This document shows, one piece after another, positions 32,674 through 50,608 of a stretch of 64,000 bases of DNA. The stretch is from positions 1 through 64,000 of the forward strand of contig CAILKP010000069.1 of assembly GCA_903834785.1 (NCBI GenBank), written 5' to 3'. The notes under the pieces are model-generated. The model worked only from the letters and a program-made list of their open reading frames with translations. It did not search any database and was not told where the DNA came from. Both the position numbers and the translations under genes were made by a program. This DNA is from an uncultured bacterium (lineage in GTDB: Bacteria > Planctomycetota > Phycisphaerae > Phycisphaerales > UBA1924). Every line of letters begins with the position of its first letter. Position 1 is the stretch's first letter.

Positions 32674-33615
32674 ATGAGCACCATTGGGCTCGGACTCGAC
32701 ACGGTTATTGGCGGGCAGGAAATCAAGCGCGACGCTGCCGTCGCCAAGCAGCACTTCGATCTGGCCATTAAGGCCGAGGGCGCCGGCAACCACGATGGCG
32801 CACTGGCCGAGCTCCGCAAGGCTGTTGCCGCGGATCCCGGTGATCAGCGTGCACTGTTCAAGCTCGCTCTCCTGCTTGACATGTCCGGCGAGGATGAGGA
32901 GGCCATCGGCTTCTACGAGCAGATCGTCGAACACCCCCCCGCGCCGATCAACGCTCTGCTCAACCTGGCGACCCTCTACGAGGACCGCGGCGAGTTCGCC
33001 AAGGCCGAGCGCTGCCTCAAGCAGGTGCTCGACACCGACGCCAACCACCCCCGCGCCCGTCTGTTCATGCTCGACGTTCAGGCCAGCAAGGGCATGATCA
33101 AGGAAGATGACGGCGAGAAGGACCGCTTCAAGCGTTCCGCCCTGCTGGACACCCCGGTCACGGACTTCGAGCTCTCCGTCCGGGCCCGCACCTGCCTCAA
33201 GAAGATGTCCATCCGCACCCTCGGCGATCTGATCAAGACCACCGAAGCCGAGTTGCTCAGCTACAAGAACTTCGGCGACAACTCCCTGGTGGAGATCAAG
33301 CAGATGCTCGCGGCCAAGGGCCTCAAGCTCGGCCAGGGCCGCGACGAGGCACACCGCGCCGTCCGCAAGCAGATGATCGACCAGTACAAGGGCACGGCTC
33401 AGGAGGGCATCCTCCAGAAGGCCGTCAGCGAGCTGAACCTCTCGGTTCGCGCCCGCAAGGCCCTGCAGCTGCTGAACATCCACACCCTCGGCGAGCTCAT
33501 CGCTCACACCGAGGCCGAACTGCTCGGCGTCAAGAACTTCGGCGCCACCTCCCTGGCCGAGGTTCGCCAGAAGCTCAACGAGTTCGGCCTGCTGCTCCGC
33601 AAGATCGACGCGTAA
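32674..33615 (+). CDS. TPR protein with two RNA polymerase alpha-CTD-like domains
   Basis: 313 residues. Residues about 20-140 are TPR repeats (HFDLAIKAEGAGNHDGALAELRKAVAADP; LLNLATLYEDRGEFAKAERCL). Two copies of an alpha-CTD-like helix-hairpin-helix domain follow. The first (about 160-225) reads VTDFELSVRARTCLKKMSIR then TLGDLIKTTEAELLSYKNFG. The second (about 250-313) has LNLSVRARKALQLLNIHT then TEAELLGVKNFGATSLAEV. Both closely follow the RNA polymerase alpha C-terminal domain, yet no alpha N-terminal domain is present. It could bind DNA or RNA polymerase partners. Relatives are annotated in planctomycetes as alpha-CTD proteins; function unknown. It ends with a strong terminator. Confidence 0.85.
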   Translation: MSTIGLGLDTVIGGQEIKRDAAVAKQHFDLAIKAEGAGNHDGALAELRKAVAADPGDQRALFKLALLLDMSGEDEEAIGFYEQIVEHPPAPINALLNLATLYEDRGEFAKAERCLKQVLDTDANHPRARLFMLDVQASKGMIKEDDGEKDRFKRSALLDTPVTDFELSVRARTCLKKMSIRTLGDLIKTTEAELLSYKNFGDNSLVEIKQMLAAKGLKLGQGRDEAHRAVRKQMIDQYKGTAQEGILQKAVSELNLSVRARKALQLLNIHTLGELIAHTEAELLGVKNFGATSLAEVRQKLNEFGLLLRKIDA

Positions 33616-33678: not shown

Positions 33679-33825
33679 GTGGGAGTCTCTGATCACTTGA
33701 AGGTCGACGGTGTCGGAAGCCCTGCTCGATGAGCGAACATCCAAGACCAGCACTGACGAGGCCGTCCTCACAGATCTATGATCGAGCGAGGGACAAACCT
33801 CCCACCCAACTTGGAGAGCAAAGAG

Positions 33826-34716
33826 ATGAACGCTGTCAGGAACTTCACTGGTCTCATGATCGTCGCGGCACTGGCCGGCACCGCCTCAGCCCAGACGTCG
33901 TACACCTATCTGGCCATCGGTGACTCGGTCGGCTTCGGCATCACCAACGGTGCGAGCTACACCCAGTTTTCCAACGGTGACCGCGGCTACGTCTCACTGT
34001 TCGCCGATTACCTGACGACGCAGAACGTCGGCCTGCGGCCCACCGTCCGCAACATCTCCATCTTCGGTGATGACACCGTGACGCTGGGCAACACCTCCAA
34101 CCCCGCCCGGGTCCTGAACACCAACTACCCGCTGTTCCCGGCGGTCAGCCAGCTCGACTTCATCTCCACTCAGATCGCCCAGGCCTCCCTGGCCGGCCGG
34201 CCGGTTCAGCGGGTCACCGTTTCCATGGGTGCCAACGACCTGCTCGGCGTCGTCCAGCAGCCCGGCTTCCTGGCGCTGCCCTCGCTCCAGCAGGCCGCCC
34301 TGGTGTTTGGCGCACTGAACACGGCGCAGAACAACCTCGCCTCGCTGTACGGCTCGCTTCGTGCGCAGCTGCCGACCGCCGAGATCATCGCCGTCGGGTA
34401 CTACGACCCCTTTGCCGTGCTGCCCGGCAACCCGAACCCCGCGCTGACCGCCGGGGCCATCAACCAGCTCAACCAGATCATCCAGGCCACCAGCACCGCG
34501 TTCGGTGCCCGCTATGTCGACGTCTACTCGGCCTTCTCGGGCAACGAGGCCGTGCTGACCAACATGCTGCTGGACCAGACCACCACAGCCCCCAACGTGC
34601 ACCCCACGGATGCGGGGTACCAGGTCATCGCCAATCAGATCATCCCGACCCCGGGCGCCGGTCTGGTCATGGCCACCGGCCTGGTGGTCCTCAGCCGCCG
34701 CCGCCGCACCGCCTGA
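33826..34716 (+). CDS. secreted SGNH/GDSL hydrolase with VPTPGA-type C-terminal anchor
   Basis: 296 residues. Signal peptide MNAVRNFTGLMIVAALAGTASAQ, then the GDSL block YLAIGDSVGFG with the nucleophile Ser, block III SMGANDLLG and block V NVHPTDAGY with the catalytic Asp/His. It is a Ser esterase/lipase of the SGNH fold, substrate unknown. The C-terminus has IPTPGAGLVMATGLVVLS and RRRRTA, the same anchor type as the neighbours. ATG 33826 is preceded by TTGGAGAG; the longer frame from 33778 lacks a signal start. Confidence 0.86.
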   Translation: MNAVRNFTGLMIVAALAGTASAQTSYTYLAIGDSVGFGITNGASYTQFSNGDRGYVSLFADYLTTQNVGLRPTVRNISIFGDDTVTLGNTSNPARVLNTNYPLFPAVSQLDFISTQIAQASLAGRPVQRVTVSMGANDLLGVVQQPGFLALPSLQQAALVFGALNTAQNNLASLYGSLRAQLPTAEIIAVGYYDPFAVLPGNPNPALTAGAINQLNQIIQATSTAFGARYVDVYSAFSGNEAVLTNMLLDQTTTAPNVHPTDAGYQVIANQIIPTPGAGLVMATGLVVLSRRRRTA

Positions 34717-35090: not shown

Positions 35091-35104
35091 CAAGGAGAGA
35101 TTTG

Positions 35105-35626
35105 ATGAATCGTGATATCGCATTTGGTACCTTCGCCGTTCTGCTCACCGCTGGCTCAGCGATGGCACAGGTGTTCGCTGGCAGCACCACCGGTGACCCG
35201 GTCTGGACCCGGCCTGTCGCCGGCACGCCGCCGGTCGGCCTTTCGGGTGTCGGCACGGCCACCCCGTACGACGTTCTGGCCTTCACCGTCGACATCACCG
35301 GCTCTTACACGTTCCAGAACACGGCCGTTGCCGCTTGGGACAACTACACCTTCCTGTACCAGAACTCATTTGACTCGACGCTGCCCCTGGCCAATGTGCT
35401 GACCGGCAACGATGACAACCCCGGCATCGGCCTGTCGGGGTTTGCCAGCAACCTCACCGCTGGTACGACCTACTTCTTCGTGACCACCGGCTTCGGCAAC
35501 TCCGACTCCGGTGACTACAGCCTGTCGATCAGCGGGCAGGGTATCGCGACGATCGTTCCGGCCCCGGGCGCCGCCGCACTGCTGGGCCTTGGCGGCCTTG
35601 CGCTGACTCGCCGTCGCCGTCGCTGA
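35105..35626 (+). CDS. small secreted protein with VPAPGA-type C-terminal anchor
   Basis: 173 residues. Signal peptide MNRDIAFGTFAVLLTAGSAMAQ, then a beta-rich body with TGSYTFQNTAVAAWDNYTFLYQ and LTAGTTYFFVTTGFGNSDSG, reminiscent of pre-peptidase C-terminal-like or DVUA0089-like beta domains. The C-terminus has VPAPGAAALLGLGGLAL and RRRRR. ATG 35105 lies 8 bases after AAGGAG (35091-35096); TTG 35102 is a less likely start. Likely a cell-surface protein of unknown role. Confidence 0.78.
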   Translation: MNRDIAFGTFAVLLTAGSAMAQVFAGSTTGDPVWTRPVAGTPPVGLSGVGTATPYDVLAFTVDITGSYTFQNTAVAAWDNYTFLYQNSFDSTLPLANVLTGNDDNPGIGLSGFASNLTAGTTYFFVTTGFGNSDSGDYSLSISGQGIATIVPAPGAAALLGLGGLALTRRRRR

Positions 35627-35706: not shown

Positions 35707-36029
35707 GCATCACCCACGGCAATCGGGGTGCCCTCAGGCGGACCCGACAACGTGGCCGACTCCAAACGCGAATGACTCACTCGGCCTCCTGGTCCTCCGA
35801 CGCGGCCTCCGTGCGCCCGGAGACCCGATAACAGCCCATTCTGACGCACGTGCCCGCCGCAACAGCGGGGCCTTGTTCTTAGGTCCACTTGCCGACTCTC
35901 AGGGGCCCAGGTGCTGGCAATAGGCGGCCGCCAGGAGCGTTCATCAGTTGGTTGATTCTCCAACCAACGGCGGAGCCGTTCGTGCTCTGTCCCTCATCCT
36001 GCCCCCACCCCCAACCTCCGAGCCGATCC
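35707..36029. other. intergenic stretch before the SET-NRPS-Nudix operon
   Basis: About 320 bases with no recognisable gene. It precedes a three-gene operon and must hold its promoter. The short inverted sequence ttggttgattctccaaccaa at 35946-35965 is a perfect 8-bp inverted repeat around gatt... and could be an operator, but this is only a possibility. Confidence 0.35.
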
Positions 36030-36584
36030 GTGGTAAACGACTCCTCTATCGCATCACTTGCCGCAGCCGAACTTGACGGCATCGCCGCGCCGCGTACAGC
36101 ACGCGTTCGCGTCGTCCACACCGATGGGATGTGGCGGGTACTGGCGATGGAGCACATCGGCCATGGCGAACTCATCCTCGAAATCAAAGGCGTGCTGGTC
36201 GACCAACCATCGCGGTACACCGTCCAGATCGGCGAAGGGGTACACATCGCGCCAGCACCGGGGAGGGACGACCCCAGCCGCGGCGACGATCCGCCGTCGT
36301 ACCCCTGGCAGTTCCTGAATCACTCGTGCGATCCAAACGCAGTGATCGCGGGGACAAACCTGGTCGCTCATCGTCGCATCGACGCTGGGCAGGAGGTCAC
36401 ATTCGACTACAACACGACGGAGTACGAGATGGCGACGCCCTTTGCCTGTCAGTGCCAGGCATGCGGTGACGGTGGCAGTCTGATCGCCGGCTTCCGGTTT
36501 CTCCCAACCCCGCGGCAGCGTGAGATGTACCCTCGCCTGGCGGAGCACCTCCGCCGCAAGCTGGGCGGGTCCGGAGCGACCTGA
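36030..36584 (+). CDS. SET-domain protein (putative protein/amine lysine methyltransferase)
   Basis: About 184 residues. The SET core is clear: MEHIGHGELILEIKG at the N-terminal strand region, FLNHSCDPNAVI (residues about 95-106, the S-adenosylmethionine/pseudoknot motif NHSCxPN), AGQEVTFDYNTTEYEMATPFACQCQAC, i.e. the catalytic DYN tyrosine region followed by a post-SET CxC..C zinc site. SET enzymes methylate lysine amines using S-adenosylmethionine. The start is uncertain: GTG 36030 was chosen because the frame upstream is Pro-rich and unlike the family. Its stop is only 3 bases before the ATG of the large NRPS gene, so the two are translationally coupled. Bacterial SET genes beside an NRPS are unusual. 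Confidence 0.83.
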   Translation: MVNDSSIASLAAAELDGIAAPRTARVRVVHTDGMWRVLAMEHIGHGELILEIKGVLVDQPSRYTVQIGEGVHIAPAPGRDDPSRGDDPPSYPWQFLNHSCDPNAVIAGTNLVAHRRIDAGQEVTFDYNTTEYEMATPFACQCQACGDGGSLIAGFRFLPTPRQREMYPRLAEHLRRKLGGSGAT

Positions 36585-36587
36585 GCG

Positions 36588-39500
36588 ATGCCCGACGCGT
36601 CTGACCAGACACCCCGGCTGCTTCACGACTTCTTTGCCGCCTCGGTGCGGGCGCACAGCGAACGCATCGCCGTTGATGTACCGCCGGACGGCCGCGGCGG
36701 TCATCGACAGACTGTGACCTACCGCGAGCTCGACGAGCAGTCCGACGCGATCGCCCAGTCGCTGGGCGCACTGCCGCCGGACACACTGGTGGCGGTGATG
36801 CTGCCTCGAAGCTCGTACCTGGTGTACGGGGCACAACTCGGGATCCTGAAGGCGGGTGGCGCGTTTGCCTGCATCGATCCGAGCTTCCCGGATTCTCACG
36901 TGCAGTCGGTGCTGGACGATGCCGGCAACCCGGTCCTGCTGACTGATGCCGCGGGAGCGGCACGAACGGCGGCCGCCGGAGTGCGGGCGGCGCGGGTAAT
37001 CGACATCACCGATGCAGCAGCGCTTCGACCCGACATGCACGCGACAGCCGCACGGGACCGAACGACGGTTCAGCCCGAGCACTTGTGCTATGTGATCTAC
37101 ACATCAGGCACAACGGGTAAGCCCAAGGGTGTGCTGATCGAGCACCGCTCGATCGTGAACCTGGTAGGCTCGGATGTCGCCGAGTTCGGACTGACGCCGG
37201 ACGACCGCGTGGCACAGGGCTCGTCTGCGGCGTACGACTCGTCGATCGAGGAAACCTGGCTGGCACTGGCGGCTGGCGCGACCGTCGTCGTGATGGACGA
37301 CCACACCGCACGCCTGGGGCCCGACCTGGTGGCGTGGCTGCGCCACGAGCGAGTGAGCGTGTTCTGCCCGCCGCCCACCCTGCTGCGCACGACCGGATGC
37401 GAGGACCCGGCAAGCGAGCTGCCGGACCTGCGGCTGCTGTACGTCGGCGGTGAAGCGTTGCCGGATGATCTGGTGGAGCGATGGGCCAGAGGCCGCCGGC
37501 TCGTCAACGGATACGGCCCGACTGAGTGCACGGTGACGGTTGTGCGAGGTGACGTGCGAGTCGGCGAAACGGTGACGATCGGCGATCCGGTACCCGGACA
37601 CACGGCGTGGGTTCTGGATACAGACCTGTGCGAGGTACCCCGCGGCGAACCGGGTGAGTTGTGCCTGGCGGGCATCGGTCTGGCTCGCGGGTACCGCAAT
37701 CGGCCTGAAGTGACGGCGGAGAAGTTCCCGACGCATCCGATCCTGGGGCGGATCTACCGCACGGGCGATCTGGTCACACAGAATCCAGACGGCTCGTACA
37801 ACTATCTCGGCCGGATCGATGGACAGGTCAAGCTCCGCGGTTACCGCGTGGAGCTTGAGGCCGTCGAGGCGCACCTGGCTCGCTGTCCCGGAGTTCGGGA
37901 GGCGGCCTGCCGGGTGCAGGGTATCGGCAGCGCGCAGCTGCTGACGGCACACATCGTGCCACTGATTCCGAACGATCCCCCCGACTTTGCGGAACTCAGC
38001 GGCTCGCTTCGGGGGGTGCTGCCGATGTACATGGTGCCGGCCCGCTACGGCCTCATCAGCGAACTGCCGCGAACCGTGGGTGGCAAGCTTGACCGCAAGC
38101 GACTGCCTGAACTGGCCGGTGCGGCCAGTCAGGCCGCCAGAGGCGATCGCGAGCCAGTTGCGCCGCGCACCGAGACTGAACGCACTGTGGCCGCGGCATT
38201 TGCGCGTGCGATATCCGCCGTCATCAGTGCAACCGGAACCTCTGGCACCCAGGTGGATGCTGTATCGGTGCTTGATGACTTCTTTATCGACCTTGGCGGT
38301 GATTCACTCTCAGCTGTCGGTGTGGTGTGCTCGCTAAGAGAACGCCCCGAAACCGCGGCAGTGACAACTCGCGACTTATACGAAACACGGACCGCTGCCG
38401 CACTGGCGGCACGGCTGGATGGACGCACAGCAACACGGCACCCCGTGAGGCGGGGAACCTGCGGACCGGTGAGCGGTGCCGCGATCCATCCGGTGAAGGT
38501 GACGGTGTTGCAGATGATCTGGCTCGCCGTGCAGTTGGTGGTGGCCAGTGCGGCGGGATACACGATCCTGTACGAGCTCTTTCCGCTCGCGCTCGAGCAC
38601 TTCGGCGTCCTTGGCACGCTCGCACTCGAACCAGTCGCCGCGGCGATCGGCGTCGTCATCTACACGCTGTGCATGGTGGGGCTGACGGCAGGTCTGAAGT
38701 GGACACTGATCGGCCGGTATGAACCGGGACGTTCTCCGGTCTGGAGCTGGTTCTACCTGCGGCACTGGATGGTCACGGGGGCGGCACGGATGATCCCTTG
38801 GGGACTGCTCTCGGGCACGGTGCTGTACGGCACCGTGCTGCGGGCGCTGGGCGCACATGTCGGGCGAGGCGTCCACATCCACCGCGGCGTCAACTTGGCC
38901 CAGGGAGGATGGGATCTGCTGACCATCGGTGACGGGGCCACACTTGCGTGCGATTCGCACATCGGGCTTGCTGAACTCGAGAGCGGGCAGCTGTGCATCG
39001 GTCCGGTGACCATCGGCCCCGATGCAACCGTCGACATCCGCGCCACCATCAGCGGGGGCGCACAGATCGGCCGCAGCGGCGTACTGGCACCCCTGAGCTG
39101 GCTCCCAGGCGGTCAGCAGATTCCCGACAACGAGTGCTGGAGCGGCGTTCCGGCCGTGCACACGGGCCCTGCGGAAGAGCGTGCTCTCGAGGGGGACAGC
39201 CGCGAGTTGTCTGCGGTGCTGTACTCGATCATTCAACTGGCCATGGCGGGCGCTTCGCACGCCGCGGCGATGCTGCCGGTCCTCGTCGGGCTGTACGCCC
39301 TGGCGACAGCGCTGTCGATCAGCCCGGAGGTCGTCGGTCAGTGGCTCAGCGACCCGGAGTGGACGGCCACCTCGCTGGCGCTGATGCTGGTGGCGGGCAT
39401 GGTGTGGGTGCCGGTATCACTGGCCGCCCGGGCTCTGGCGGTCCGCTGGTTCGGCCGGGTGCGTCCCGGGGTGGTGCACCGCTGGAGCGTTCCATATGCG

Positions 39501-41774
39501 CTCGCAGCGCACAAGACCCACGAGGTGGAGGAAGCAGGAAGGTGGCTCAGCGGGACCCTGTACTGGCCGGTGTGGCTGAGACTGGCGGGGATGAAGATCG
39601 GCCGTGACTGCGAGATCAGCACCATCACGGGCGTCGTACCCGAGTTGGTGGAGATCGGCCGGGGGAGTTTCTTTGCCGATGGAATCTATCTTGGCGGCCC
39701 GCACGTGCGCCGGGGGATGGCCACCCTTGGCCGGACGGTGCTGGGAAGCGGAACGTTTCTGGGCAATCACGTGGTGATCCAGGCCGGCGTGACAATGCCG
39801 CCGGGCACGTTTCTGGGCGTGTGCACCGTGGCGGATGCGTCGCTGGCGGGTCGAGCCACGGCGGACAGTTCGTGGTTCGGCGTGCCGGCGATGGAACTGC
39901 CGCGGCGGGAGGTAGTCAGCGTGGACCGCTCACTGACGCACGAGCCCGGCTTCTGGCGGTACACCTCTCGGGTGTTCTGGGAGTCGCTGCGGTTCGCGTT
40001 ACCGGTGGTGCCGCTGTGCGCCGGTGCGATCTGGCTGTGGCTGATGGCACTGGGATCGGAGGATGCGGGGTGGGCGGTGTGGGCACTGGTGATGGCACCC
40101 GCCGCGACGCTGGCGGTTGTCGTCGCTGAGTGTCTGCTGGTGGTGGCGATGAAATGGGCCCTACTCGGCCGCGCGAGGGCTGGGCAGCACCCGCTCTGGT
40201 CGTGCTGGTGCAGCCGCTGGGACTTTCTGTATGTCGCGTGGCAGTTCTACGCGGTGCGGGCACTGGCCGCACTGGAGGGCACGCTGCTGCTGGCGGTGTA
40301 TCTGCGGGCGATGGGTGTGCGGATCGGCCGTCGCGTGGTGCTGGGTCCCGGATTCGTCCAGGTGGCCGACCCGGACATGATCATCATCGAGGATGACGCG
40401 ACAGTCAGCGCGAACTATCAGGCGCACAGTTTCGAGGACCGCGTCCTGAAGCTGGCCCCGGTGACGGTTCAGCGTGGTGCCACGGTGGGCGAGTCGGCGG
40501 TCGTGTTCTACGGGGCGGACATCGGTGATGGTGCATGGGTGAGTCCCAACAGCGTCGTGATGAAAAACGAGGTCCTCGGCGCCGCTGAGACGTTCGCCGG
40601 GTGCCCGGTACAACCGGTCGATGCCGACGCTGACACCGCGGCGACCGAAGACCCAGTGACGGGACTGACGCCTGCAGCCCCGGCGACTTCGGGCCGCTTG
40701 GCAGAGCTTGATCTCGCCCGCGGCGTGGCGGTCATCGGCATGATCTACATGCACTTTGTACCGGCCGAGACCGTTCAGCCGGGGTTGCTCGGCGAATCGG
40801 CGGCGTGGCTCGCGGCGGCCCTGGAGGGCAAGGCGGCGGCACTGTTCTGCATCCTCGCCGGGATGACCTGGGAGCTGCAAGGCCGGAACCGTCGCGGCAA
40901 CGCACGGCCCGGCTGGCAGCACCTGATCCGACGGTCCGGCACGCTGGCGATTGTCGGTGTGGCATTCCACGCACTGGTGTGGCCGACATCGATCCTGCTT
41001 CCCTTTGCGGTGATGATGCTGCTGTCGGGGCTGATCCATCGGTCGGGAGTGCGAGCGGTACTGCTGGCCGCCGCACTGTGCCTTGTGCTGGCACCGGCGG
41101 TGGTACGGTGGCTCGGAGACTACAGCCAGACTGACTGGAACGCCGACGGCAGCCACCGGGCCGACTCGGAACTGGGATGGGCGACACTCCGGTGGTTGGT
41201 CTTCGACGGACACTACCCGCTGGTGCCGTGGCTGGCATTCCCGCTCATCGGCATGGCACTGATGGCCTGGCACCGCGACGGCTCGCGGCCGCTGCGGGCC
41301 TGGTTCGCCCCTGCCGCGGCCGTGGCAATCCTCTCGCAGGCCTATGTCTGGTGGGCAGATGCGAGCACCGAGACACTCGGCCCGCTGACGCCCTATCTCA
41401 CAAGCACATGGCTGCCGACTTCACTGGTGTTTGTCGTGCTGACCGGCAGTTCGGCACTGGCGGTCATCAGTGGTGCGGCATGGCTGTTCGGCCGCGGGGT
41501 CGGGTGCGAGGCGAGCACACCTCAATCCGGCCTCGCCGGCACACTGGCGCTCGTCGGCCGGGCCTCGCTGAGCCACTATCTGCTGCACCTGTGCGTGGTG
41601 TACGCCCCACTGCGTGCGTTACTAGGCCACGAGGAATGGTCGGTGCAGACCGGCCTGATCGCCTTCGCCGGGTATCTGGCGCTTGCCGTGCCGCTGACGG
41701 CGCTGTGGTTCCGCCGCTTCCGTCAAGGACCCGCCGAGTGGGCGTGGGCGCGTGCCTCCGGATCGGCGGCATGA
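36588..41774 (+). CDS. Pls/PosA-type single-module NRPS fused to an acyltransferase-like membrane domain
   Basis: 1,728 residues. An adenylation domain fills about 1-510: YTSGTTGKPKG (about 171), YDSSIEETW (Asp217), NGYGPTE, YRTGDL, GRIDGQVKLRGYRVE and the A10 lysine in VGGKLDRK. A carrier domain follows with FFIDLGGDSLSAV (phosphopantetheine Ser573). No ordinary condensation or thioesterase domain is present. Instead there are membrane segments alternating with three left-handed beta-helix (hexapeptide) regions near 750-850, 1000-1105 and 1240-1345, the architecture of the terminal region of epsilon-poly-L-lysine synthetase (Pls) and related poly-amino-acid synthetases. An extra C-terminal region from about 1365 begins LDLARGVAVIGMIYMHF and ends with a DUF418-like segment (GRASLSHYLLHL), resembling membrane acyltransferases. 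The product is inferred to be a homopoly- or acylated amino acid. Confidence 0.88.
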   Translation: MPDASDQTPRLLHDFFAASVRAHSERIAVDVPPDGRGGHRQTVTYRELDEQSDAIAQSLGALPPDTLVAVMLPRSSYLVYGAQLGILKAGGAFACIDPSFPDSHVQSVLDDAGNPVLLTDAAGAARTAAAGVRAARVIDITDAAALRPDMHATAARDRTTVQPEHLCYVIYTSGTTGKPKGVLIEHRSIVNLVGSDVAEFGLTPDDRVAQGSSAAYDSSIEETWLALAAGATVVVMDDHTARLGPDLVAWLRHERVSVFCPPPTLLRTTGCEDPASELPDLRLLYVGGEALPDDLVERWARGRRLVNGYGPTECTVTVVRGDVRVGETVTIGDPVPGHTAWVLDTDLCEVPRGEPGELCLAGIGLARGYRNRPEVTAEKFPTHPILGRIYRTGDLVTQNPDGSYNYLGRIDGQVKLRGYRVELEAVEAHLARCPGVREAACRVQGIGSAQLLTAHIVPLIPNDPPDFAELSGSLRGVLPMYMVPARYGLISELPRTVGGKLDRKRLPELAGAASQAARGDREPVAPRTETERTVAAAFARAISAVISATGTSGTQVDAVSVLDDFFIDLGGDSLSAVGVVCSLRERPETAAVTTRDLYETRTAAALAARLDGRTATRHPVRRGTCGPVSGAAIHPVKVTVLQMIWLAVQLVVASAAGYTILYELFPLALEHFGVLGTLALEPVAAAIGVVIYTLCMVGLTAGLKWTLIGRYEPGRSPVWSWFYLRHWMVTGAARMIPWGLLSGTVLYGTVLRALGAHVGRGVHIHRGVNLAQGGWDLLTIGDGATLACDSHIGLAELESGQLCIGPVTIGPDATVDIRATISGGAQIGRSGVLAPLSWLPGGQQIPDNECWSGVPAVHTGPAEERALEGDSRELSAVLYSIIQLAMAGASHAAAMLPVLVGLYALATALSISPEVVGQWLSDPEWTATSLALMLVAGMVWVPVSLAARALAVRWFGRVRPGVVHRWSVPYALAAHKTHEVEEAGRWLSGTLYWPVWLRLAGMKIGRDCEISTITGVVPELVEIGRGSFFADGIYLGGPHVRRGMATLGRTVLGSGTFLGNHVVIQAGVTMPPGTFLGVCTVADASLAGRATADSSWFGVPAMELPRREVVSVDRSLTHEPGFWRYTSRVFWESLRFALPVVPLCAGAIWLWLMALGSEDAGWAVWALVMAPAATLAVVVAECLLVVAMKWALLGRARAGQHPLWSCWCSRWDFLYVAWQFYAVRALAALEGTLLLAVYLRAMGVRIGRRVVLGPGFVQVADPDMIIIEDDATVSANYQAHSFEDRVLKLAPVTVQRGATVGESAVVFYGADIGDGAWVSPNSVVMKNEVLGAAETFAGCPVQPVDADADTAATEDPVTGLTPAAPATSGRLAELDLARGVAVIGMIYMHFVPAETVQPGLLGESAAWLAAALEGKAAALFCILAGMTWELQGRNRRGNARPGWQHLIRRSGTLAIVGVAFHALVWPTSILLPFAVMMLLSGLIHRSGVRAVLLAAALCLVLAPAVVRWLGDYSQTDWNADGSHRADSELGWATLRWLVFDGHYPLVPWLAFPLIGMALMAWHRDGSRPLRAWFAPAAAVAILSQAYVWWADASTETLGPLTPYLTSTWLPTSLVFVVLTGSSALAVISGAAWLFGRGVGCEASTPQSGLAGTLALVGRASLSHYLLHLCVVYAPLRALLGHEEWSVQTGLIAFAGYLALAVPLTALWFRRFRQGPAEWAWARASGSAA

Positions 41775-41777
41775 CCT

Positions 41778-42317
41778 GTGCGCACCGCCAGCGTCAGGAT
41801 GTCGGGTGCTGCGGGCCAGAGCGTACACTGCCGCGTGCATCCCGATCTGTTGCCACCATCCGATGTTCCGCCCGCGTACTGCTGCGCCATTCTGCTGGAT
41901 CGCGCAGGCCGGTTGCTGCTGGAACGGCGACCCAGCGACGATGCCGACGCCCCCGGACAGCTGACTTGCTTTGGTGGCGGGCGGGAGGCGGGGGAAGATC
42001 CGCTGATCTGCTTGCGGCGGGAACTGCTTGAGGAGATCGGCTTTGCCGTCGGCATCGCCTCGCACGTGCTGACGCTGCACACGCCGGCGGGCCCGGCGTG
42101 GTTCTATCTGGCCGAAGGACCGCTGGCGGGGACGGTGCGGGCCCACGAGCCCGGCCATGAGGCTGTCTGGCTGGAGCGTGCCGCACTCATGACCGCCCCG
42201 CTGGCCGACTGGCACGATGCGGCACTGCGGGCCTGGCACTCCGGCGAGCCGGAAGCCTGGGTGCAAGGGATGCGCCCGCGTGAGTGGTGGATAAAGAAAA
42301 ACAGCCGCCCGGGTTAA
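41778..42317 (+). CDS. Nudix hydrolase
   Basis: About 179 residues from GTG 41778, or 172 from ATG 41799. The Nudix box is complete: GGGREAGEDPLICLRRELLEEIG, matching G-x5-E-x7-R-E-x-x-E-E-x-G, so it should hydrolyse a nucleoside diphosphate linked to another moiety, with Mg2+. The substrate cannot be told. The gene begins 3 bases after the NRPS stop and is the last of the SET-NRPS-Nudix operon. It could be a housecleaning enzyme for adenylated by-products, but that is speculation. Its stop codon lies in the loop of the following hairpin. Confidence 0.87.
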   Translation: MRTASVRMSGAAGQSVHCRVHPDLLPPSDVPPAYCCAILLDRAGRLLLERRPSDDADAPGQLTCFGGGREAGEDPLICLRRELLEEIGFAVGIASHVLTLHTPAGPAWFYLAEGPLAGTVRAHEPGHEAVWLERAALMTAPLADWHDAALRAWHSGEPEAWVQGMRPREWWIKKNSRPG

Positions 42318-42403: not shown

Positions 42404-44170
42404 TCAGGCGTGTGCCCGCCGGCGGCGGCGGGCGACAAGCAAGCCAGCGAGACCGAGCAGTGCGCCGGTGGCGGGTGTGGGCACCGCACTGACGCGGAAC
42501 TGGCTGACGATCTCCGGGGTCAGCGAGGTGATCAAGGCCGGGTTCGCGTTCAGCTGCGCCTGGGTGTAGGGATCGATGCCCCAGGTCGTCACCAGCAGTT
42601 CCTGCGTGATGGCGTCGATGTTGAACTCGGTCCAGCCGAAGGTGTGCGTCGAGGCGTACGAACCGCTGACCAGCGTCGCGGGGATCCCCGAACCCTGCAG
42701 ACCGATGGGGTCGTAGCCCAGCGGAACCAACTGGGCGTTGAGCAGGTTCTCGATGAACCCGTCCTTGCCCTGCCGCGGGAGTGAGTTGTAGAACGCCGTC
42801 TGCGCTGGGGTGAGCAGGCCGAACTGGCTGGCAAGGCCGGCAACGGTCGGCCCGAACGGGGCATCGAAGGCAACGGAGCCGGTGGTGATCTCCCAAGCAT
42901 TCGTGGGGATCTGCGGCTGGCCGGGGCCGGTCTGGTATGTCAGGTTGTTGACCAGCGTGCCGTGGATGTCCGCCGAGATGAACACGACGTTGTCGATGTT
43001 GTTGTTGCGGATGAAGCTCAGCAGTTCCGTCCGCTCGGCGGCGTAGCCCTCGAAGCGATCCGAAGCACCCAGCACGCCGAGGTTCTGGATCGGCTCGTTG
43101 ATGTTGACGAACTTCCAGGTCGTGCCGTTCTGCTGGGCCGTGAGCAGGTCGTTCTTGAGGCGATTGAGCTGAGGGGTGCCCAGCAGCGTGCGCCCGGGCG
43201 TGAAGGATGCCGCGATGTACGCACCGATCGAAGCCGGATCAACGGGGTTGGCCGCCGGAAGCCCGGGGTCGCGGAAGCTGCGGGCATCCAGGACGCTGAC
43301 CTGCGCATCGGAGCCGTACGACTGGTTGCGGTAGAGGTCGGGGCGACCGTCAAAGCGGCTGTCGCCGGTTCCCGACCACACCCGCTGCTGGGTGGGGTGA
43401 TATTCCTGGAACGCGTGGATGCCGTTGCGGTAGAGCGTCGAGGTGTTGACCAGATCAGTCGGGGCTCCGGTGCCTGTGAACCGCGGGTCGGAGCCGATCG
43501 TCGCACCACCGATGAAGTCGTTGGTGACCTCGTGATCATCGATCGTGGCCAGCACCGACATGCTCGCACGCAGCGAGCGGAAGGTGTTCAGACCATAACG
43601 AGTGCTGTAGATCTCGTTGTGCTTGGCACGGAACTCACCGAGCGTGGTGGCCTGCGCGGCCGGAACGGCCGGCGAGGGATAGTCGGCGTAGATCGTGTCG
43701 CCCAGGGAGATCCAGAGTTCCAGGTTGCGGTCGGCAACGTTGCGAACGGCGGGGAATGGCGCAAGCTCACCCCGCCAGTCACCGGAGACGCCGAACCGCA
43801 GGCCGTTGCGCCCACCGGCGGCGGCGGTGCGGAACTGGCCGGCAGCGACGGAGCCCGCAGAATCCGTAGCGCGGTAGAAGTAGCGGGTGCCACCCGACAG
43901 CCCGGTGGCCGCCACGCGGACGGGCTCGGTCGGATCCGTCACCAGTGCGCCGTACGCACCGACGATGCTGCCGGCGGCAAAGTCCGGAGTCGTGGCAACC
44001 TCAAAGGTCACCGCACCGGTCTGGGTGCTGCGGGTCCACAGCACGGTGCTGCTGGTAGTCGTGTCACCGGAGGCGACACCGTTGGGAAGCGTCTCGATAC
44101 CGGCCGCGGCGGTACCGGCAGCGGCCAGCAGTACTGCGGCGGCGAACGGACGTGAAATCATCTTGATCAC
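42404..44170 (-). CDS. phoD: PhoD-type alkaline phosphatase with CTERM anchor
   Basis: 588 residues. Signal peptide MIKMISRPFAAAVLLAAAGTAAAG. An N-terminal beta domain follows (PNGVASGDTTTSSTVLWTR, typical of PhoD), then the catalytic core: FGVSGDWRG, SLGDTIYADY, IDDHEVTNDF, the NINEPIQ strand and VVFISADIHGTLVNN, which supply Ca/Fe-binding Asp/His residues. It releases phosphate from organic phosphomonoesters or diesters outside the cell. The C-terminus carries VPTPATGALLGLAGLLVA and RRRRRAHA, the same anchor as three other secreted proteins here. GTG 44170 is chosen because AGGAG precedes it by 7 bases. It lies behind the T2SS operon, from which a hairpin separates it. Confidence 0.9.
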   Translation of the reverse strand: MIKMISRPFAAAVLLAAAGTAAAGIETLPNGVASGDTTTSSTVLWTRSTQTGAVTFEVATTPDFAAGSIVGAYGALVTDPTEPVRVAATGLSGGTRYFYRATDSAGSVAAGQFRTAAAGGRNGLRFGVSGDWRGELAPFPAVRNVADRNLELWISLGDTIYADYPSPAVPAAQATTLGEFRAKHNEIYSTRYGLNTFRSLRASMSVLATIDDHEVTNDFIGGATIGSDPRFTGTGAPTDLVNTSTLYRNGIHAFQEYHPTQQRVWSGTGDSRFDGRPDLYRNQSYGSDAQVSVLDARSFRDPGLPAANPVDPASIGAYIAASFTPGRTLLGTPQLNRLKNDLLTAQQNGTTWKFVNINEPIQNLGVLGASDRFEGYAAERTELLSFIRNNNIDNVVFISADIHGTLVNNLTYQTGPGQPQIPTNAWEITTGSVAFDAPFGPTVAGLASQFGLLTPAQTAFYNSLPRQGKDGFIENLLNAQLVPLGYDPIGLQGSGIPATLVSGSYASTHTFGWTEFNIDAITQELLVTTWGIDPYTQAQLNANPALITSLTPEIVSQFRVSAVPTPATGALLGLAGLLVARRRRRAHA

Positions 44171-44343
44171 GATGCATCTCCTCACAAGGAAGGGATCTCT
44201 CTTGGCCACCGATGGGTACCGCCACGTGAGCGGAAGGGACATCCACCACCGAAGGCCCGTCATCAAGTGTGGCCCCGGCACGGTGCTTGCGCGGCCCCGG
44301 CCGCATCAAGAGTCAGTGATAGTTGCGCAAAGACCAATGCAAA

Positions 44344-44435: not shown

Positions 44436-47195
44436 TCACTCGCCGCCGCGGAGCCCGGGCGGGTCCTGCATGATCGGCGGGGCGACGGGTGGTGCGCCCG
44501 CATCGGGCTTGCTGCGGAGTTCGCCCATTTCCTGCCTGAGCTCCTCGAGCCGTTTACGTGCCGGCTCGTTGAGTTGCTTCATCTCGGTCGGGTTGTTGAC
44601 GACCACTGGCGTGATGAACGCGACGAGCTCGGTGCGTGTCTTGATCTTCTCGATGTTGGTGAACAAGGCACCCAGCAGCGGGATATCACCGAGCCCCGGG
44701 ATCTTGCGCTTCACGTCGGAGTCTTCGCTGCGGAGGATGCCGGAAATGACGACCGTCTGACCGTCCTGGACGATCAGCTGCGTGGTGGTTTCGCGGCGGT
44801 CGACGACGGCCTGGTTGTTGACCGTCCGGGAGGGATCCACACTCGACAGTTCGAGATTGACCTTGATGTCGACGTCACGCTCGGGCGTGATGCGCGGGCG
44901 GACACGCAGGGCGATGCCCACGGCCTTGTAATCAAAGCTGTTGACCACGTTCTGGTTGTTACCCGTGGGCACCTGTGAGTTGGTGATAAACGGGATGTCC
45001 TGACCGTCGAAGAACTCGGCCTGCTGGTTGTCGCCGGTGAAGATTCGCGGCTCGGAAAGAATGGTGACCTTGCTGGTCTGGGCCAGTGCCTGCAGGAGGA
45101 TGTTCAGATCAACACCCACGTTCAGGACGCTGGTGTCAAACAGCCCGGGGAGCAGATCGTTCTTCGTACCGGTGATCGGCTGGGTGACGTTGCCCGCGGC
45201 ATTGCGGCTGCCGCCGATGGCCACGGTGTTGTCCTGACGCGTCGGCGTGATACCCGTCTGGCTGAAGCGAACGCCCAGGGCGGTGGAGTCGTCCAGCGAG
45301 ATCTCGGCGATGATCGCAGAGATCAGCACCTGCCGTCCGGGACGGTCGAGCCGATTGATCAGCTCGTTGATGGCCTTGCGATACTCAACGGGAGCCAGGA
45401 CCATCAGCGCGTTCTGCCGGGCAACGGGGACGACACGGGCCTTGGCCACCAGGTTGCCGCTGCCGGCGTTGTCCGTGGGCACCCGTGCGCGGGACCACCA
45501 GAACGTCAGGTTGTTGTTCGCCGCGGTCTGCTGGTTGGCCTGCGTGGTGGTCTGGTCGGTCGTGCTGGCGGCAAACGGTGATGAGTTGGTCGCGCTGGTA
45601 GCCAGAGTCGAGTCCGTCCGCCTCACCTGAGCGACGGTGCCTTCCTGTGCCAGCAGGGCGTTGATCTGCTCGGCGAGATCCTCGGCGGTGGCGTGCTTGA
45701 GTTCGATTACATCAGGGATCATCGAAGTGACGGGCTTGTCGAGCTCCTCGATGACCTTCTCGATGACATCGAGGTTGTCGGGGCTCTTGGACACCACGAT
45801 GATGCGCGACGCCTCGGGAATGGCCTGGAAGCTGAACTGCCCAGCGAGCCGCCCGGTGCCCGTGGTGGAACCGGCACGGTTGGCCTGATTTCCGCCGCCA
45901 CCGCCACCCTGCGTGGTGGTGGCGGTGCCCTTGCCAAAGAGTCCCTCGAGCACATCGCGGATCTTGATCGCGTCGGTGTTCTTGAGGTCAAAGACGCGCG
46001 GCACAACCGCCTCCTCAGGCAGCGGGCGGTCCCACTGCTCGAGCACCTGTGTGCGGATCTGGTCGATGACGTTCTGTTCGGCCACCACGGTCACCGCGTT
46101 CTGCTGGGTGTTGGCCGTGACGCGGAGGTTGTTGCTGGTGGCAGCCGCAGCGGTGCCACCGCCCTGCTGGTTGTTGCCCCCGCGCCCGCCCTGCTGGTTG
46201 TTCCCACCGCCCTGGAACTGCCGGATGAACTGCTGCATCTGCTGGTTGCGGTTCGTGTTGTTCTGCTGGCCGCCGCGGCCGGCGGTCGTGCCGTCACCGT
46301 AGAGGTCGCGGATGTTCTGGGCGATCACTTCAGCATCCGCGTACTTCAGGTGGAACGTGGCGCTGGCCAGGGACGCTGTGCTCGGACGATCCAGGGCCAG
46401 GAGCACTCGCTCGATGCGCTGGAGCAGTGCGATCGGTCCGGTGATCAGGATCTGGTTGCTCTCCGGCTCGATGGCGATCTTGGCGTAGTCGGGGATCGAA
46501 GGCTTGAGCACCTCGCCGATGGTGGTGGCCGTGCCCGACCGCAACTGGAAGATCTTCTGGGCTACGGTGCCCACATCGCCACGTTCAAGCGTCGAGACCT
46601 CCGGACCGAGGACCGGGATCGGCTGCTTGTCGATATCAACCTGATCGCGCAGGTAGATGATCGTGTCGTTCTCGATGATCGCCACACCGGTCTGCTGCAG
46701 TGCCAGGAAGACCAGGTCCAGTGCCTGTGAACGCGGGATCGGCTTGTCGTTGAGCAGCGTGATGCGGCGGGCCAGCACCTCCTGCTGCGGCAGCACGACC
46801 TTGCCCGTGCTCTCGACAATGAACGGGATCAACTGCTCGACGTTGACCTGCTTGAACGACAGCTTCGTCGGCTCACCGGGCAGGATGCGCCGGTTGAGCG
46901 AGTCAAACTTCATCTCCGGCTTGGCCTCTGCAGCCTTGGCCTCGGGCGCCTTGCCGTCGGTCGCGGCGGCCGCACCAGGCGTGGCCGGTGTTGCAGGAGT
47001 TGCAACAGGCGTCGTCGCCGGCGCTGCCGCAGCCTCGCCCGCAGGCGCAGGCGTCGTCGCCGGGGCTGGCGTTGGTGCAGAGGCCGGGGTTGGCGCGGGA
47101 GATGGCGCAGGCGTCCCGGGAACGCCCGGCTGAGCGAACGCGCTCAGGCACAGGCCGCAGCAGGAAATCAGAGCAACAGTGCGGCGATCAAGCAT
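44436..47195 (-). CDS. gspD: type II secretion outer-membrane secretin GspD
   Basis: 919 residues. Signal peptide (MLDRRTVALISCCGLCLSAFAQ), then a Pro/Ala/Thr-rich linker to about residue 90. Several N-domains follow (FHLKYADAEVIAQNIRDLYG; RVFDLKNTDAIKIRDVLEGLFG; IELKHATAEDLAEQINALL), with Asn/Gln/Gly-rich inserts. The C-terminal secretin domain contains KIPGLGDIPLLGALFTN and the beta-barrel region IVQDGQTVVISGILRSE. The multimer forms the exit gate for folded exoproteins. It is the last gene of the T2SS operon, 97 bp after the PilP-like gene. Confidence 0.94.
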   Translation of the reverse strand: MLDRRTVALISCCGLCLSAFAQPGVPGTPAPSPAPTPASAPTPAPATTPAPAGEAAAAPATTPVATPATPATPGAAAATDGKAPEAKAAEAKPEMKFDSLNRRILPGEPTKLSFKQVNVEQLIPFIVESTGKVVLPQQEVLARRITLLNDKPIPRSQALDLVFLALQQTGVAIIENDTIIYLRDQVDIDKQPIPVLGPEVSTLERGDVGTVAQKIFQLRSGTATTIGEVLKPSIPDYAKIAIEPESNQILITGPIALLQRIERVLLALDRPSTASLASATFHLKYADAEVIAQNIRDLYGDGTTAGRGGQQNNTNRNQQMQQFIRQFQGGGNNQQGGRGGNNQQGGGTAAAATSNNLRVTANTQQNAVTVVAEQNVIDQIRTQVLEQWDRPLPEEAVVPRVFDLKNTDAIKIRDVLEGLFGKGTATTTQGGGGGGNQANRAGSTTGTGRLAGQFSFQAIPEASRIIVVSKSPDNLDVIEKVIEELDKPVTSMIPDVIELKHATAEDLAEQINALLAQEGTVAQVRRTDSTLATSATNSSPFAASTTDQTTTQANQQTAANNNLTFWWSRARVPTDNAGSGNLVAKARVVPVARQNALMVLAPVEYRKAINELINRLDRPGRQVLISAIIAEISLDDSTALGVRFSQTGITPTRQDNTVAIGGSRNAAGNVTQPITGTKNDLLPGLFDTSVLNVGVDLNILLQALAQTSKVTILSEPRIFTGDNQQAEFFDGQDIPFITNSQVPTGNNQNVVNSFDYKAVGIALRVRPRITPERDVDIKVNLELSSVDPSRTVNNQAVVDRRETTTQLIVQDGQTVVISGILRSEDSDVKRKIPGLGDIPLLGALFTNIEKIKTRTELVAFITPVVVNNPTEMKQLNEPARKRLEELRQEMGELRSKPDAGAPPVAPPIMQDPPGLRGGE

Positions 47196-47292
47196 GACAG
47201 GTATCCGGTCGTTCGAGCGGGACAAGAACAAGAACAGTCAAGGACGGGTAGACAAAGGCGGCCAGCAGCCAGCAGCGATCACACGGCCACAC

Positions 47293-48201
47293 CTACTTGG
47301 GCTTCTGATCCACGGACGGATCCGTCGTCGGAGGTGCAGGTGAAGGAGCAGGCGGGGTGGACGGATTCACCAGCGGAAGGTCCGGCAAGGCAGGCGGATT
47401 TGACGGTGCCGGTGCATAGGCAGGACCAGTAGCCGGGGCCGGTTCTGCGGGCTGGCTTGCCGGCTGGGTCGCATCAGGCGGCACACTTTGCGGGTTGGCT
47501 GCGCCGGGCGCATCGCCGCCGCGGGGCGGGCCACCAGGGCCTCCGTCGCCTCCGCCGCCACCGGGGCCGCGACCGCCATCTGCACGCGACTCACGGAAGT
47601 CCGGCCGCCCGCTGCCAGGACCGCTGCCGTTGCCACGGCCGCTGCGCGACGCGGGCTCGGTGGCCATTCCAGGTGGCGTCGTTGAGCCACCCAGGCCGGT
47701 GTTGAGCTTGACGGGGTCGCGCTCAAAGAGATTCACGGTAAACTCCGCCCCGTTGTACCGGAGGCGTGCCGACCACGGCGGATCGACGCTGACGACCGCC
47801 AGGCCACCCTCGCTGGGGCTGCCGACGGTCAGACGCTTGCCATCGGCAAAGAAGACGCTGTCAGACACCATGCCGATGATGGCCGGACCCGAGTACCGAG
47901 TCGGGGTCGGCGGCGGTGGCGGGGCCTTGGGCTTGGGCGGGTAGAACGGCGACCGCGTCGTCACCTTGTCTGCCGTAGCTGTGAGCGTCTTGCGGAACAG
48001 ATCCGTGCGGGCCTTGAGGTCATCGCCGCTGATCGGCTGCACATCCACCTTCGTCGGTGCGTCCATGGAGCGCATGAGCGCCGGCACCTGGGCCAGCACC
48101 ACCACGCCGCTGAGCAGCAGCAGGCACAGCACGGCCAGGCCGATCCATCCGCGGCCGCGGGATTGCAGCGAGAACGTCGCGATCAGTTCAGAGAGTTTCA
48201 A
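47293..48201 (-). CDS. GspC/PilP-like inner-membrane component
   Basis: 302 residues. A cytoplasmic start (LKLSELIATFSLQ), one membrane helix (WIGLAVLCLLLLSGVVVLAQ, about 19-38), a periplasmic region with RYSGPAIIGMVSDSVFFADGKRLTVG, a small beta domain of the GspC/PilP HR type, then a long Gly/Pro/Arg-rich tail. The start is TTG 48201, which overlaps the stop of the PilO-like gene (TTGA) and follows GGAGGG; the upstream open frame was rejected for this reason. It should link the inner-membrane platform to the secretin GspD. No PDZ domain is visible. Confidence 0.75.
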   Translation of the reverse strand: MKLSELIATFSLQSRGRGWIGLAVLCLLLLSGVVVLAQVPALMRSMDAPTKVDVQPISGDDLKARTDLFRKTLTATADKVTTRSPFYPPKPKAPPPPPTPTRYSGPAIIGMVSDSVFFADGKRLTVGSPSEGGLAVVSVDPPWSARLRYNGAEFTVNLFERDPVKLNTGLGGSTTPPGMATEPASRSGRGNGSGPGSGRPDFRESRADGGRGPGGGGGDGGPGGPPRGGDAPGAANPQSVPPDATQPASQPAEPAPATGPAYAPAPSNPPALPDLPLVNPSTPPAPSPAPPTTDPSVDQKPK

Positions 48202-48827
48202 AGGTTGCCCTCCGTTGCCGCGGGCGTTTCCTTGGCCGTGGCCGCACCGTCGGGCGCGATCGCCCACGCTTCAACAACAATCGTCACCGAGAGCACGCCG
48301 CCACCGGTCTTCGGGTTGACTTCACTGATCCGGCGAACATCCAGACGGCTGACGGCCGACACCTCGGGGGCCAGTTCAAGTTCACGGAGAATCGTCATCA
48401 GCTCGGCGGTCTCGCATTCAAGCTGCAGTTCCTTGCCGACGCGAGTGACCTTCTGGGCAACGCCCAGCGTCAGCGGCGTGAGGTTGTCACGCGTGAGCCG
48501 GCGCTTCTCCGTCGCGGCCTTTCCGTTGAGCACAGCGCTGAGCTTGCGGTCCAGAGCCGCCAGCCGGTCATCGCCCTGCGGCAGGTCCGGAGTGCCGAAG
48601 GCAGCGATCCCGGCATCGATCATCGCCCGATTGTTCTCGAGCCGGTCCTTGAGCGAGGCCCGCTGACGCAGCCGCGCCTCGATGCGGTCGGCCTCCACTG
48701 TCACCGAGTTCATGAAGTTGATGTACGGCTCGATTGCGCCGAAGTACAGCACCATCACGACAGCAAACCACACCCCCCACTTGCCGGCACGCGGCATCTG
48801 CCAATAGGACTCAAGGAGCTTCTTCAT
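48198..48827 (-). CDS. GspM/PilO-like protein
   Basis: 209 residues with one N-terminal membrane helix (WGVWFAVVMVLYFGAIEPYI), a coiled-coil section (about 40-100) and a C-terminal alpha/beta domain (LQLECETAELMTILRELELAPEVSAVSRLDV), the layout of PilO/GspM. It overlaps both neighbours by 4 bp. It is expected to pair with the GspL/PilN-like protein in the inner-membrane platform. Confidence 0.78.
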   Translation of the reverse strand: MKKLLESYWQMPRAGKWGVWFAVVMVLYFGAIEPYINFMNSVTVEADRIEARLRQRASLKDRLENNRAMIDAGIAAFGTPDLPQGDDRLAALDRKLSAVLNGKAATEKRRLTRDNLTPLTLGVAQKVTRVGKELQLECETAELMTILRELELAPEVSAVSRLDVRRISEVNPKTGGGVLSVTIVVEAWAIAPDGAATAKETPAATEGNL

Positions 48828-50608
48828 GAGCCACCCCCGGCGCTGTTGAGTGAATCCAGCCGCGCCTTGAGCTTGGCGACCTCCTCGGTCAACCTCGCCT
48901 TGACCTCCTCAGTCAGGTCGGGCCGCTGGCTGGCGCCGCGGCGCGTGGCCCACTCCTTCATGGTTCCCGAGCGGTCCAGAGCGTTGATGGCCGCATCGCT
49001 GATGGCATCCGGCGGCGGCTTGGGTGCCGATGACGCCGGGGCCGTTCCACCGCTGCCGCCGGCGGCAGTGCTTGGTGCGGCGGTCGTGTTCGTGCCACGA
49101 TTGCCGGTGTTGCTGTTGCCGCGATTACCCGTCGTCGCCGCAGGCGTGGTGCGGCTGTTGCGGTTGCCGTTGTTGTTGTTGCCTGCGTTGCCGGCAGGTG
49201 CCGCGGCGGTCGAGCTGGTTCCGGAACTGGCGGCCGGGGCGGAGGTGCTCGCGCCTGAAGATACCGTGGTGCTCGCCGGCGGCCTGGCCTTGCCACCCAG
49301 TGCGATCACAGCGTTGGCCGAAACGGCCGCACTGATCTGGAACCGCTGGCTGGCGCTCTCGGTCGTCGGGTTCTTGACATCCTCAAGCACCTTGGCCTTG
49401 CCAAGGGCATCGACGTAATCGCCCACCTGCGTTGCCTCATTGAACTGGCCGGAGATACCGATGCGCCGTCCGTGCTCGATCGTCAGCGACTCCAGCAGCA
49501 GGCCCTGGGGTGCCGTGGTCGTCACCTCGGCCAGCAGCCGGGCCATTGGCCACCGCTTGCTGGTCATCAGTTCGTAGAGGTCAAACTGCTTCTGGGCCAC
49601 ATCCACGGCATCATCGCCGCTGGCCAGCTCGGCCGATGCAGCTTTCAGCGCACTGAGCCGGGCGTAGGCAAAGGCCAGCGGGGCACCGGCGATCAGCAGC
49701 ATCGCAGCAACGCCGCACACCGCGGCCACCCGGGGCTGCCCCAGCGTGGTAATCACCCGCACCGCAAGGCTCTGCTTGACCGCCGCGGGCCGGTCGCTCA
49801 TCTCCAGCACAGGTGCCATGGCACCCTCGGCCAGCAGCCGGCCGGCCAGTGAGAGCAGGCCCGCCCGTGAAATCGGCTCGGTCCCGGTGCTCAGCGACCG
49901 CATCGCCGCCGGCAGTACCAGCATGGTGCCCAGCACTTCATCCTTGTACGTGCCGCTGCCTTCATCACCACCGACTGCATCGATCTGCTGCTGGGCCTTG
50001 GCCATCAGCGTGGCCGAGCCCGGCGGAGCCAGCACCACCGAGCGTGCCTGAGCCGCCGCTCCGGAGCGGACGATCGCAAAGCCGCCGGTGGTCGTATCGG
50101 CCAAGGCCGCCAACCCGCTGCTGCCTGCGGCATACGCCAGCACGGCCAGTTCAGGGATCCACACGTCAATCCGGGGCAGGCCCAGCGAGTCGGCAATGCC
50201 AGCCCACCCCACCACCACCGCCCGCGACTGCTCGCCACTGCCGAGCACAAACCCGCCCCGGCGATGGGAGGGGTACGTGCCGGGAAGGTGGGCTTCAGCC
50301 AAGAGCGACAGTGCGGCGGCAACGTCGGCCGACGAGCCGGTCGGGGCCTCCACCTTCGGCAGGTGTGCCGAGGTCCGGGCCGCCGGGACCAGCACGGCAA
50401 TCACGTCCGGCTTGGCCTTGGCAGCCATGGTCGAGACGGCGTTCCGGTCGGCCTCGGCCTCGACAGGCATGGCCGTGATCCGTTCAATGCTCAGCACGCC
50501 CCGGGTGATCTTGCCCAGCAGGAACCGGGCCGAGCCCACCTGCCTCTGGGCGATGAGCACCCGTCCGCTGAAACGCGAGCTTTTTGATGTGTTGCTGGGG
50601 CTGGGCAT
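48824..50608 (-). CDS. GspL/PilM-PilN-like inner-membrane platform protein
   Basis: 594 residues. Residues about 15-290 resemble the actin-like cytoplasmic part of GspL/PilM (VVVGWAGIADSLGLPRIDVW, TGGFAIVRSG). A membrane helix (VAAVCGVAAMLLIAGAPLAF, about 314-333) follows, then a PilN-like periplasmic domain (WPMARLLAEVTTTAPQGLLLESLTI, RIGISGQFNEATQVGDYVDAL). A strongly Asn/Thr/Gly-rich tract of about 70 residues (NNNNGNRNSRTTPAATTGN) precedes a helical C-terminus. GspE would dock on the cytoplasmic part. A 254-bp gap separates it from gspK upstream. Confidence 0.75.
   Translation of the reverse strand: MPSPSNTSKSSRFSGRVLIAQRQVGSARFLLGKITRGVLSIERITAMPVEAEADRNAVSTMAAKAKPDVIAVLVPAARTSAHLPKVEAPTGSSADVAAALSLLAEAHLPGTYPSHRRGGFVLGSGEQSRAVVVGWAGIADSLGLPRIDVWIPELAVLAYAAGSSGLAALADTTTGGFAIVRSGAAAQARSVVLAPPGSATLMAKAQQQIDAVGGDEGSGTYKDEVLGTMLVLPAAMRSLSTGTEPISRAGLLSLAGRLLAEGAMAPVLEMSDRPAAVKQSLAVRVITTLGQPRVAAVCGVAAMLLIAGAPLAFAYARLSALKAASAELASGDDAVDVAQKQFDLYELMTSKRWPMARLLAEVTTTAPQGLLLESLTIEHGRRIGISGQFNEATQVGDYVDALGKAKVLEDVKNPTTESASQRFQISAAVSANAVIALGGKARPPASTTVSSGASTSAPAASSGTSSTAAAPAGNAGNNNNGNRNSRTTPAATTGNRGNSNTGNRGTNTTAAPSTAAGGSGGTAPASSAPKPPPDAISDAAINALDRSGTMKEWATRRGASQRPDLTEEVKARLTEEVAKLKARLDSLNSAGGGS

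Follow-up and report, generated by a model that had tools for sequence, protein, structure and literature searches.

A Pls/PosA-like synthetase fused to a TmAT membrane acyltransferase domain in a planctomycete genome, and its relatives

The window, by which we mean the whole 64,000-nucleotide stretch of DNA analysed (contig CAILKP010000069.1, from an uncultured planctomycete), encodes a protein in which a synthetase resembling those that make cationic homopolymers of amino acids continues, without interruption, into a membrane acyltransferase domain of the TmAT type. The fusion was confirmed to be genuine and recurrent. Our preferred reading, to which we assign a probability of roughly 55%, is that this synthetase carries its own tailoring enzyme, and that the TmAT domain draws on cytosolic acyl-CoA to acylate, outside the cytosol, the polymer that the protein itself has made.

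Domain architecture and recurrence of the fusion

The features of the locus are as follows, all coordinates being those of the window.

35889-36584, forward strand: SET-domain methyltransferase gene (PF00856), with the SET domain at 36132-36413; true start uncertain; 3-base gap before the synthetase gene
36588-41774, forward strand: whole synthetase gene, Pls/PosA-like in its adenylation, carrier and terminal domain order, plus TmAT domain; a single stop-free open frame of 1728 aa (open frame, domain profiles)
36636-38087, forward strand: adenylation domain (PF00501, PF13193), with specificity code DSECYGGVTK at residues 217, 218, 221, 260, 285, 287, 308, 316, 317 and 500
38250-38417, forward strand: carrier (phosphopantetheine) domain with GGDSL motif (PF00550)
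38508-40610, forward strand: Pls/PosA-type tandem terminal domain of three transmembrane pairs and three left-handed beta-helix regions (TIGR02353)
40611-40694, forward strand: linker of about 28 residues that differs between species (alignment)
40695-41771, forward strand: TmAT (HGSNAT/DUF418-like) membrane acyltransferase domain (Pfam profiles, fold match)
40710-40754, forward strand: DxxRx10H motif, D1375, R1378 and H1389, the acyl-CoA diphosphate and catalytic-type histidine positions according to PMC12423673 (motif in linked copies)
40845-40862, forward strand: FxxxxG motif, F1420-G1425, TmAT helix 2
41409-41753, forward strand: DUF418 portion of the TmAT domain (PF04235)
41565-41588, forward strand: SxxxYxxH motif, S1660, Y1664 and H1667, TmAT helix 9

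Pfam searches placed the AMP-binding domain at residues 17-369 (238.7 bits), within an adenylation domain extending overall over residues 17-500, and the PP-binding domain at residues 555-610. The TIGR02353 model aligned at full length (model positions 2-695) with residues 641-1341, scoring 388-391 bits and not reaching its cut-off of 423.1. Since this alignment is complete by residue 1341, some 30 residues before the TmAT domain starts, the additional region is not part of a normal Pls terminal domain. An earlier note, made from the sequence without database searches, had described the C-terminal extension as DUF418/HGSNAT-like, and the profile searches bore this out: HGSNAT_cat (PF07786, residues 1370-1568) scored 47.8 bits with the whole protein and 55.5 bits with the domain alone against a cut-off of 22, and DUF418 (PF04235, residues 1608-1722) scored 39.4 and 42.5 bits, respectively, against a cut-off of 23.6. 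The motif with which that note opened the region, LDLARGVAVIGMIYMHF, is present in the window protein; the domain itself stands, and its start was moved by 15 bases, from 40680 to 40695.

A survey of 55 related loci identified the fusion in 13, three of them from separate genera of the window's family and the other ten from genomes of a second planctomycete order, whilst in another four (three of the second order and one Armatimonadetes MAG) the TmAT was encoded by a gene of its own, immediately downstream of the synthetase and in the same orientation; as the loci were picked partly for long frames, these counts do not represent a frequency. In the Armatimonadetes MAG, the stop codon of the synthetase and the start codon of the TmAT overlap as GTGA. 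The synthetase was present in 5 of 163 genomes of the window's family, with HGSNAT_cat in the same frame in three of the five, each of a different genus, and in 33 of 151 genomes of the second order, where all ten frames of at least 1689 residues were fusions. The odds of an assembly or binning artefact, or of a misjoined gene pair, a danger that the earlier note had itself raised, are negligible: the window is one contig of a 161-contig draft genome, but the identical junction is repeated in 12 further independent genomes, including MAGs of different projects, which also excludes a chance origin. Our literature search found no earlier report of a synthetase-TmAT fusion.

No TmAT lay within or adjoining the synthetase gene in the remaining 38 of the 55 loci, so acylation would be optional. 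The domain is missing from several close relatives (loci L035 and L043, for instance), which indicates that the TmAT has been gained, split and lost. Nonetheless, its presence is clustered on the Pls tree, with five changes as opposed to approximately 12-15 in shuffles, the trees being the product of quick searches.

The linked acyltransferases

The 17 linked TmATs, fused and split, formed a single clade (SH-aLRT 99), separate from 16 free relatives, all from Planctomycetota, that were used for comparison. The TmAT superfamily unites HGSNAT, YeiB/DUF418, AT3 and GWT1, and its acyl-CoA site comprises DxxR, FxxxxG, an arginine of helix 3, a glycine of helix 6 and SxxxY (PMC12423673). The motifs [DE]xxRx10H, FxxxxG and SxxxYxxH were found in 17/17 linked copies, one having Glu in place of Asp, and persisted down to 35% identity. 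Invariant residues R80 and G186 of the alignment lie in places that would suit the helix-3 Arg and helix-6 Gly, to which they may correspond.

The histidine of DxxRx10H is characteristic of AT3 proteins, HGSNAT having Asn at this position (PMC12423673). All 17 linked copies have His at the position of HGSNAT N286, and the 16 free relatives have Asn (11), His (4) or Asp (1). With HGSNAT numbering obtained by adding 257 to each position of the model, counted without gaps, which agrees with the aligned ranges of the fold match, two further residues named in PMC11199644, R275 and M282, are kept in the window TmAT and N286 is His. By profile and motif, the linked clade is thus HGSNAT/DUF418-like with an AT3-type histidine.

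An AlphaFold model of the TmAT domain, built from four sequences and of low confidence (mean pLDDT 55.7), was compared with known folds using VIA-align, and matched the 10-helix TmAT fold of HGSNAT with Z 17-19 over approximately 300 residues, followed by GWT1 (13.7) and a next match at 6.7. A model of the terminal domain together with the TmAT (1099 aa) had a pLDDT of 36.6 and was set aside, and no relative was found when the TmAT profile was searched against the sequences of solved structures.

The synthetase clade and neighbouring genes

By its sequence, the synthetase is a member of a divergent Pls/PosA subfamily with a nearly invariant code. Of the 52 proteins with all ten positions readable, 48 had DSECYGGVTK and the other four differed at one position, and 74 positions of the terminal domain were conserved at 98% or more across the clade. 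All clade members checked scored under the TIGR02353 cut-off; an Azospirillum Pls/PosA protein scored 626 and an ordinary-type protein from one other planctomycete genome (G639) scored 720 bits. The window synthetase shares 49.8% identity with a Streptomyces clade member, as opposed to 30-33% with plasmid-borne proteins annotated as Pls/PosA. Clade members with DSECYGGVTK occur on Streptomyces linear plasmids (e.g. NZ_CP108254.1; locus L114, 11941-15960), where the annotation is merely 'amino acid adenylation domain-containing protein'.

In the window protein, Asp and Glu (D217 and E221) occupy code positions 1 and 3; in PosA these residues bind basic side chains (PMC10522769). The same paper reports on 'Bdello_A', a Bdellovibrionales enzyme with the code DSECYGGVTK, for which four diamino acids tested were not favoured and L-arginine was activated; its authors suspected a larger arginine analogue as the substrate. 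A basic amino acid, either arginine or a larger analogue, is accordingly predicted as the substrate of the window enzyme.

In 35 of 50 assessable loci, the synthetase gene is immediately preceded by a SET gene of the same orientation. The window's SET protein, which has the NHSCxPN and FDY motifs, scored 36.2 bits on PF00856 (cut-off 22.4), and its gene is the only SET gene found in the genome; across the 21 upstream SET genes aligned, these motifs are kept apart from minor changes. No SET gene was found in the Armatimonadetes genome, nor in the annotated neighbourhood of the Streptomyces member, and several checked genomes without an adjacent SET gene, that of Armatimonadetes included, have none anywhere, so SET was rejected as an obligatory partner; it is frequent beside the synthetase but not required. 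The synthetase clade is widespread in Planctomycetota and has members in other phyla among those sampled. No papers on SET genes beside such synthetases were found in our literature search, and no gene besides SET was conserved in the synthetase neighbourhoods. The NUDIX hydrolase gene three bases past the synthetase stop (41778-42317, forward strand) is not conserved beside other synthetases and was discarded as a pathway member. A defence system was likewise considered and rejected, as neither the synthetase nor the SET protein matched any PADLOC model.

Several other genes of the window were recorded. The gene at 32674-33615 (forward strand) encodes TPR repeats followed by two RNA polymerase alpha-subunit C-terminal domains (PF03118, 133 bits over two stretches), a pairing that is unusual outside RNA polymerase, and that at 29120-31456 (reverse) a secreted-looking protein with fibronectin type III repeats and then a calpain-family cysteine protease domain. 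Four secreted-looking proteins, including a GDSL lipase and a PhoD-like phosphatase, have a C-terminal PEP-CTERM-like tail (VP.PG/PT..A..LGL.GL...RRR), encoded at 31737-32420 (reverse), 33778-34716 (forward), 35102-35626 (forward) and 42404-44281 (reverse). The region 44436-50608 (reverse) encodes a GspD-like secretin and then type IV pilus/type II secretion-like proteins, including a weak PilN match.

Proposed pathway, alternatives and comparison with known systems

In the mechanism that we favour, the adenylation domain would load a basic amino acid onto the carrier domain and the terminal domain would link the units, as in Pls and PosA. The soluble parts of the terminal domain, situated between transmembrane pairs, would lie on the cytosolic side, and the linker runs directly into the DxxR end of TmAT helix 1, an end that TmATs have on the cytosolic side (PMC12423673). 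As the beta-helix that precedes it is necessarily cytosolic too, the topology would fit; acyl-CoA would therefore enter from the cytosol and transfer would take place at the membrane's outer face, where we infer the active site to be. There the acyl group would be passed to the polymer, whose free amino groups are the likeliest acceptors. The polymer as acceptor is a guess made solely because the two are physically linked, and the choice of amine to be acylated and the acyl group used are likewise guesses.

The main rival, unlikely though appreciable, is that an active TmAT acts on another envelope molecule, such as a sugar or the head group of a lipid; the fusion would then serve just to co-locate polymer synthesis and envelope modification, or to anchor the polymer to an acylated carrier. 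Known TmATs (HGSNAT, OafB and GWT1) do act on sugars and lipids (PMC12423673), and the many close relatives without an acyltransferase suggest that the polymer does not need one. Nevertheless, the linked TmATs form their own clade and track one synthetase through two planctomycete lineages and an Armatimonadetes MAG, as would be expected of an enzyme that serves the synthetase's product.

Rather less probably, the clade synthetase may not be a polymerase, and would instead turn arginine or an analogue into a short amide or a single aminoacyl conjugate, subsequently N-acylated by the TmAT. The preference of Bdello_A for L-arginine and the suspected larger analogue (PMC10522769) agree with this, as do the clade's scores under the curated cut-off and the poor nucleophilicity of the arginine guanidine in the formation of isopeptide chains. 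However, the full-length alignment of the terminal domain and its 74 highly conserved positions suggest that the chemistry is probably that of Pls/PosA.

It is improbable that the TmAT is catalytically dead and functions as a membrane anchor, a dimerization module or an export module for the polymer. No conserved counterpart of the HGSNAT catalytic pair H297/D307 was recognizable in the TmAT alignment, and the terminal domain, itself a membrane protein, may need help with secretion; yet the acyl-CoA-binding residues and catalytic-type histidine are kept in every linked copy, from which we infer that the domain is probably competent. For the same reason, of the two roles that the earlier note had suggested, acylation of the product is better supported than export, for which no support was found, HGSNAT not carrying its acceptor across the membrane (PMC11199644).

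Pls/PosA enzymes make unusual polycations, some of them antimicrobial or antifungal. To our knowledge, those known so far end with the terminal domain, and we know of few products of this kind from Planctomycetota. A built-in membrane acyltransferase and an upstream methyltransferase gene would, if our reading is true, imply that decoration of such polymers occurs in bacteria; the recurrence of the partnership in other bacteria suggests an unknown, chemically decorated polymer, and the clade code points to a substrate beyond the known set. More tentatively, SET, synthetase and TmAT may constitute a compact pathway, distributed over Planctomycetota and extending to other phyla, for an undescribed cationic polymer built of arginine or of a basic amino acid that is N-methylated. 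In it, SET would act in the cytosol, methylating either the monomer or the chain, the synthetase would polymerize and the TmAT would acylate outside, the DSECYGGVTK enzymes then being a separate class of homopolyamino-acid synthetases.

Compared with known systems, the window synthetase resembles Pls (epsilon-poly-L-lysine) and PosA (delta-poly-L-ornithine) in domain order, full-length TIGR02353 alignment and the acidic pair of its code; it differs in a code unlike those of the Lys, Orn, Dab and Dap enzymes, in the fused TmAT and in the upstream SET gene. Its code is identical to that of Bdello_A, a comparison by code and description only, the sections of PMC10522769 consulted mentioning neither a TmAT fusion nor a SET gene. 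The TmAT domain belongs with the HGSNAT/YeiB (DUF418) branch by both Pfam profiles, fold match and DxxR, FxxxxG and SxxxY motifs, but departs from HGSNAT in its histidine, the lack of a luminal domain and the lack of an evident H297/D307 pair, and from YeiB in scoring only 44 of 325 bits on the equivalog NF008093, far under the cut-off. With AT3 acyltransferases (OatA, OafB and OacB) it shares DxxRx10H, and 13 of 15 copies are hit by PF01757 with E values of at most 0.001; however, the window copy falls just under the cut-off (30 of 31 bits), helix 3 is without RxxR (IRRSGTLA), and the partner is a synthetase rather than an SGNH domain.
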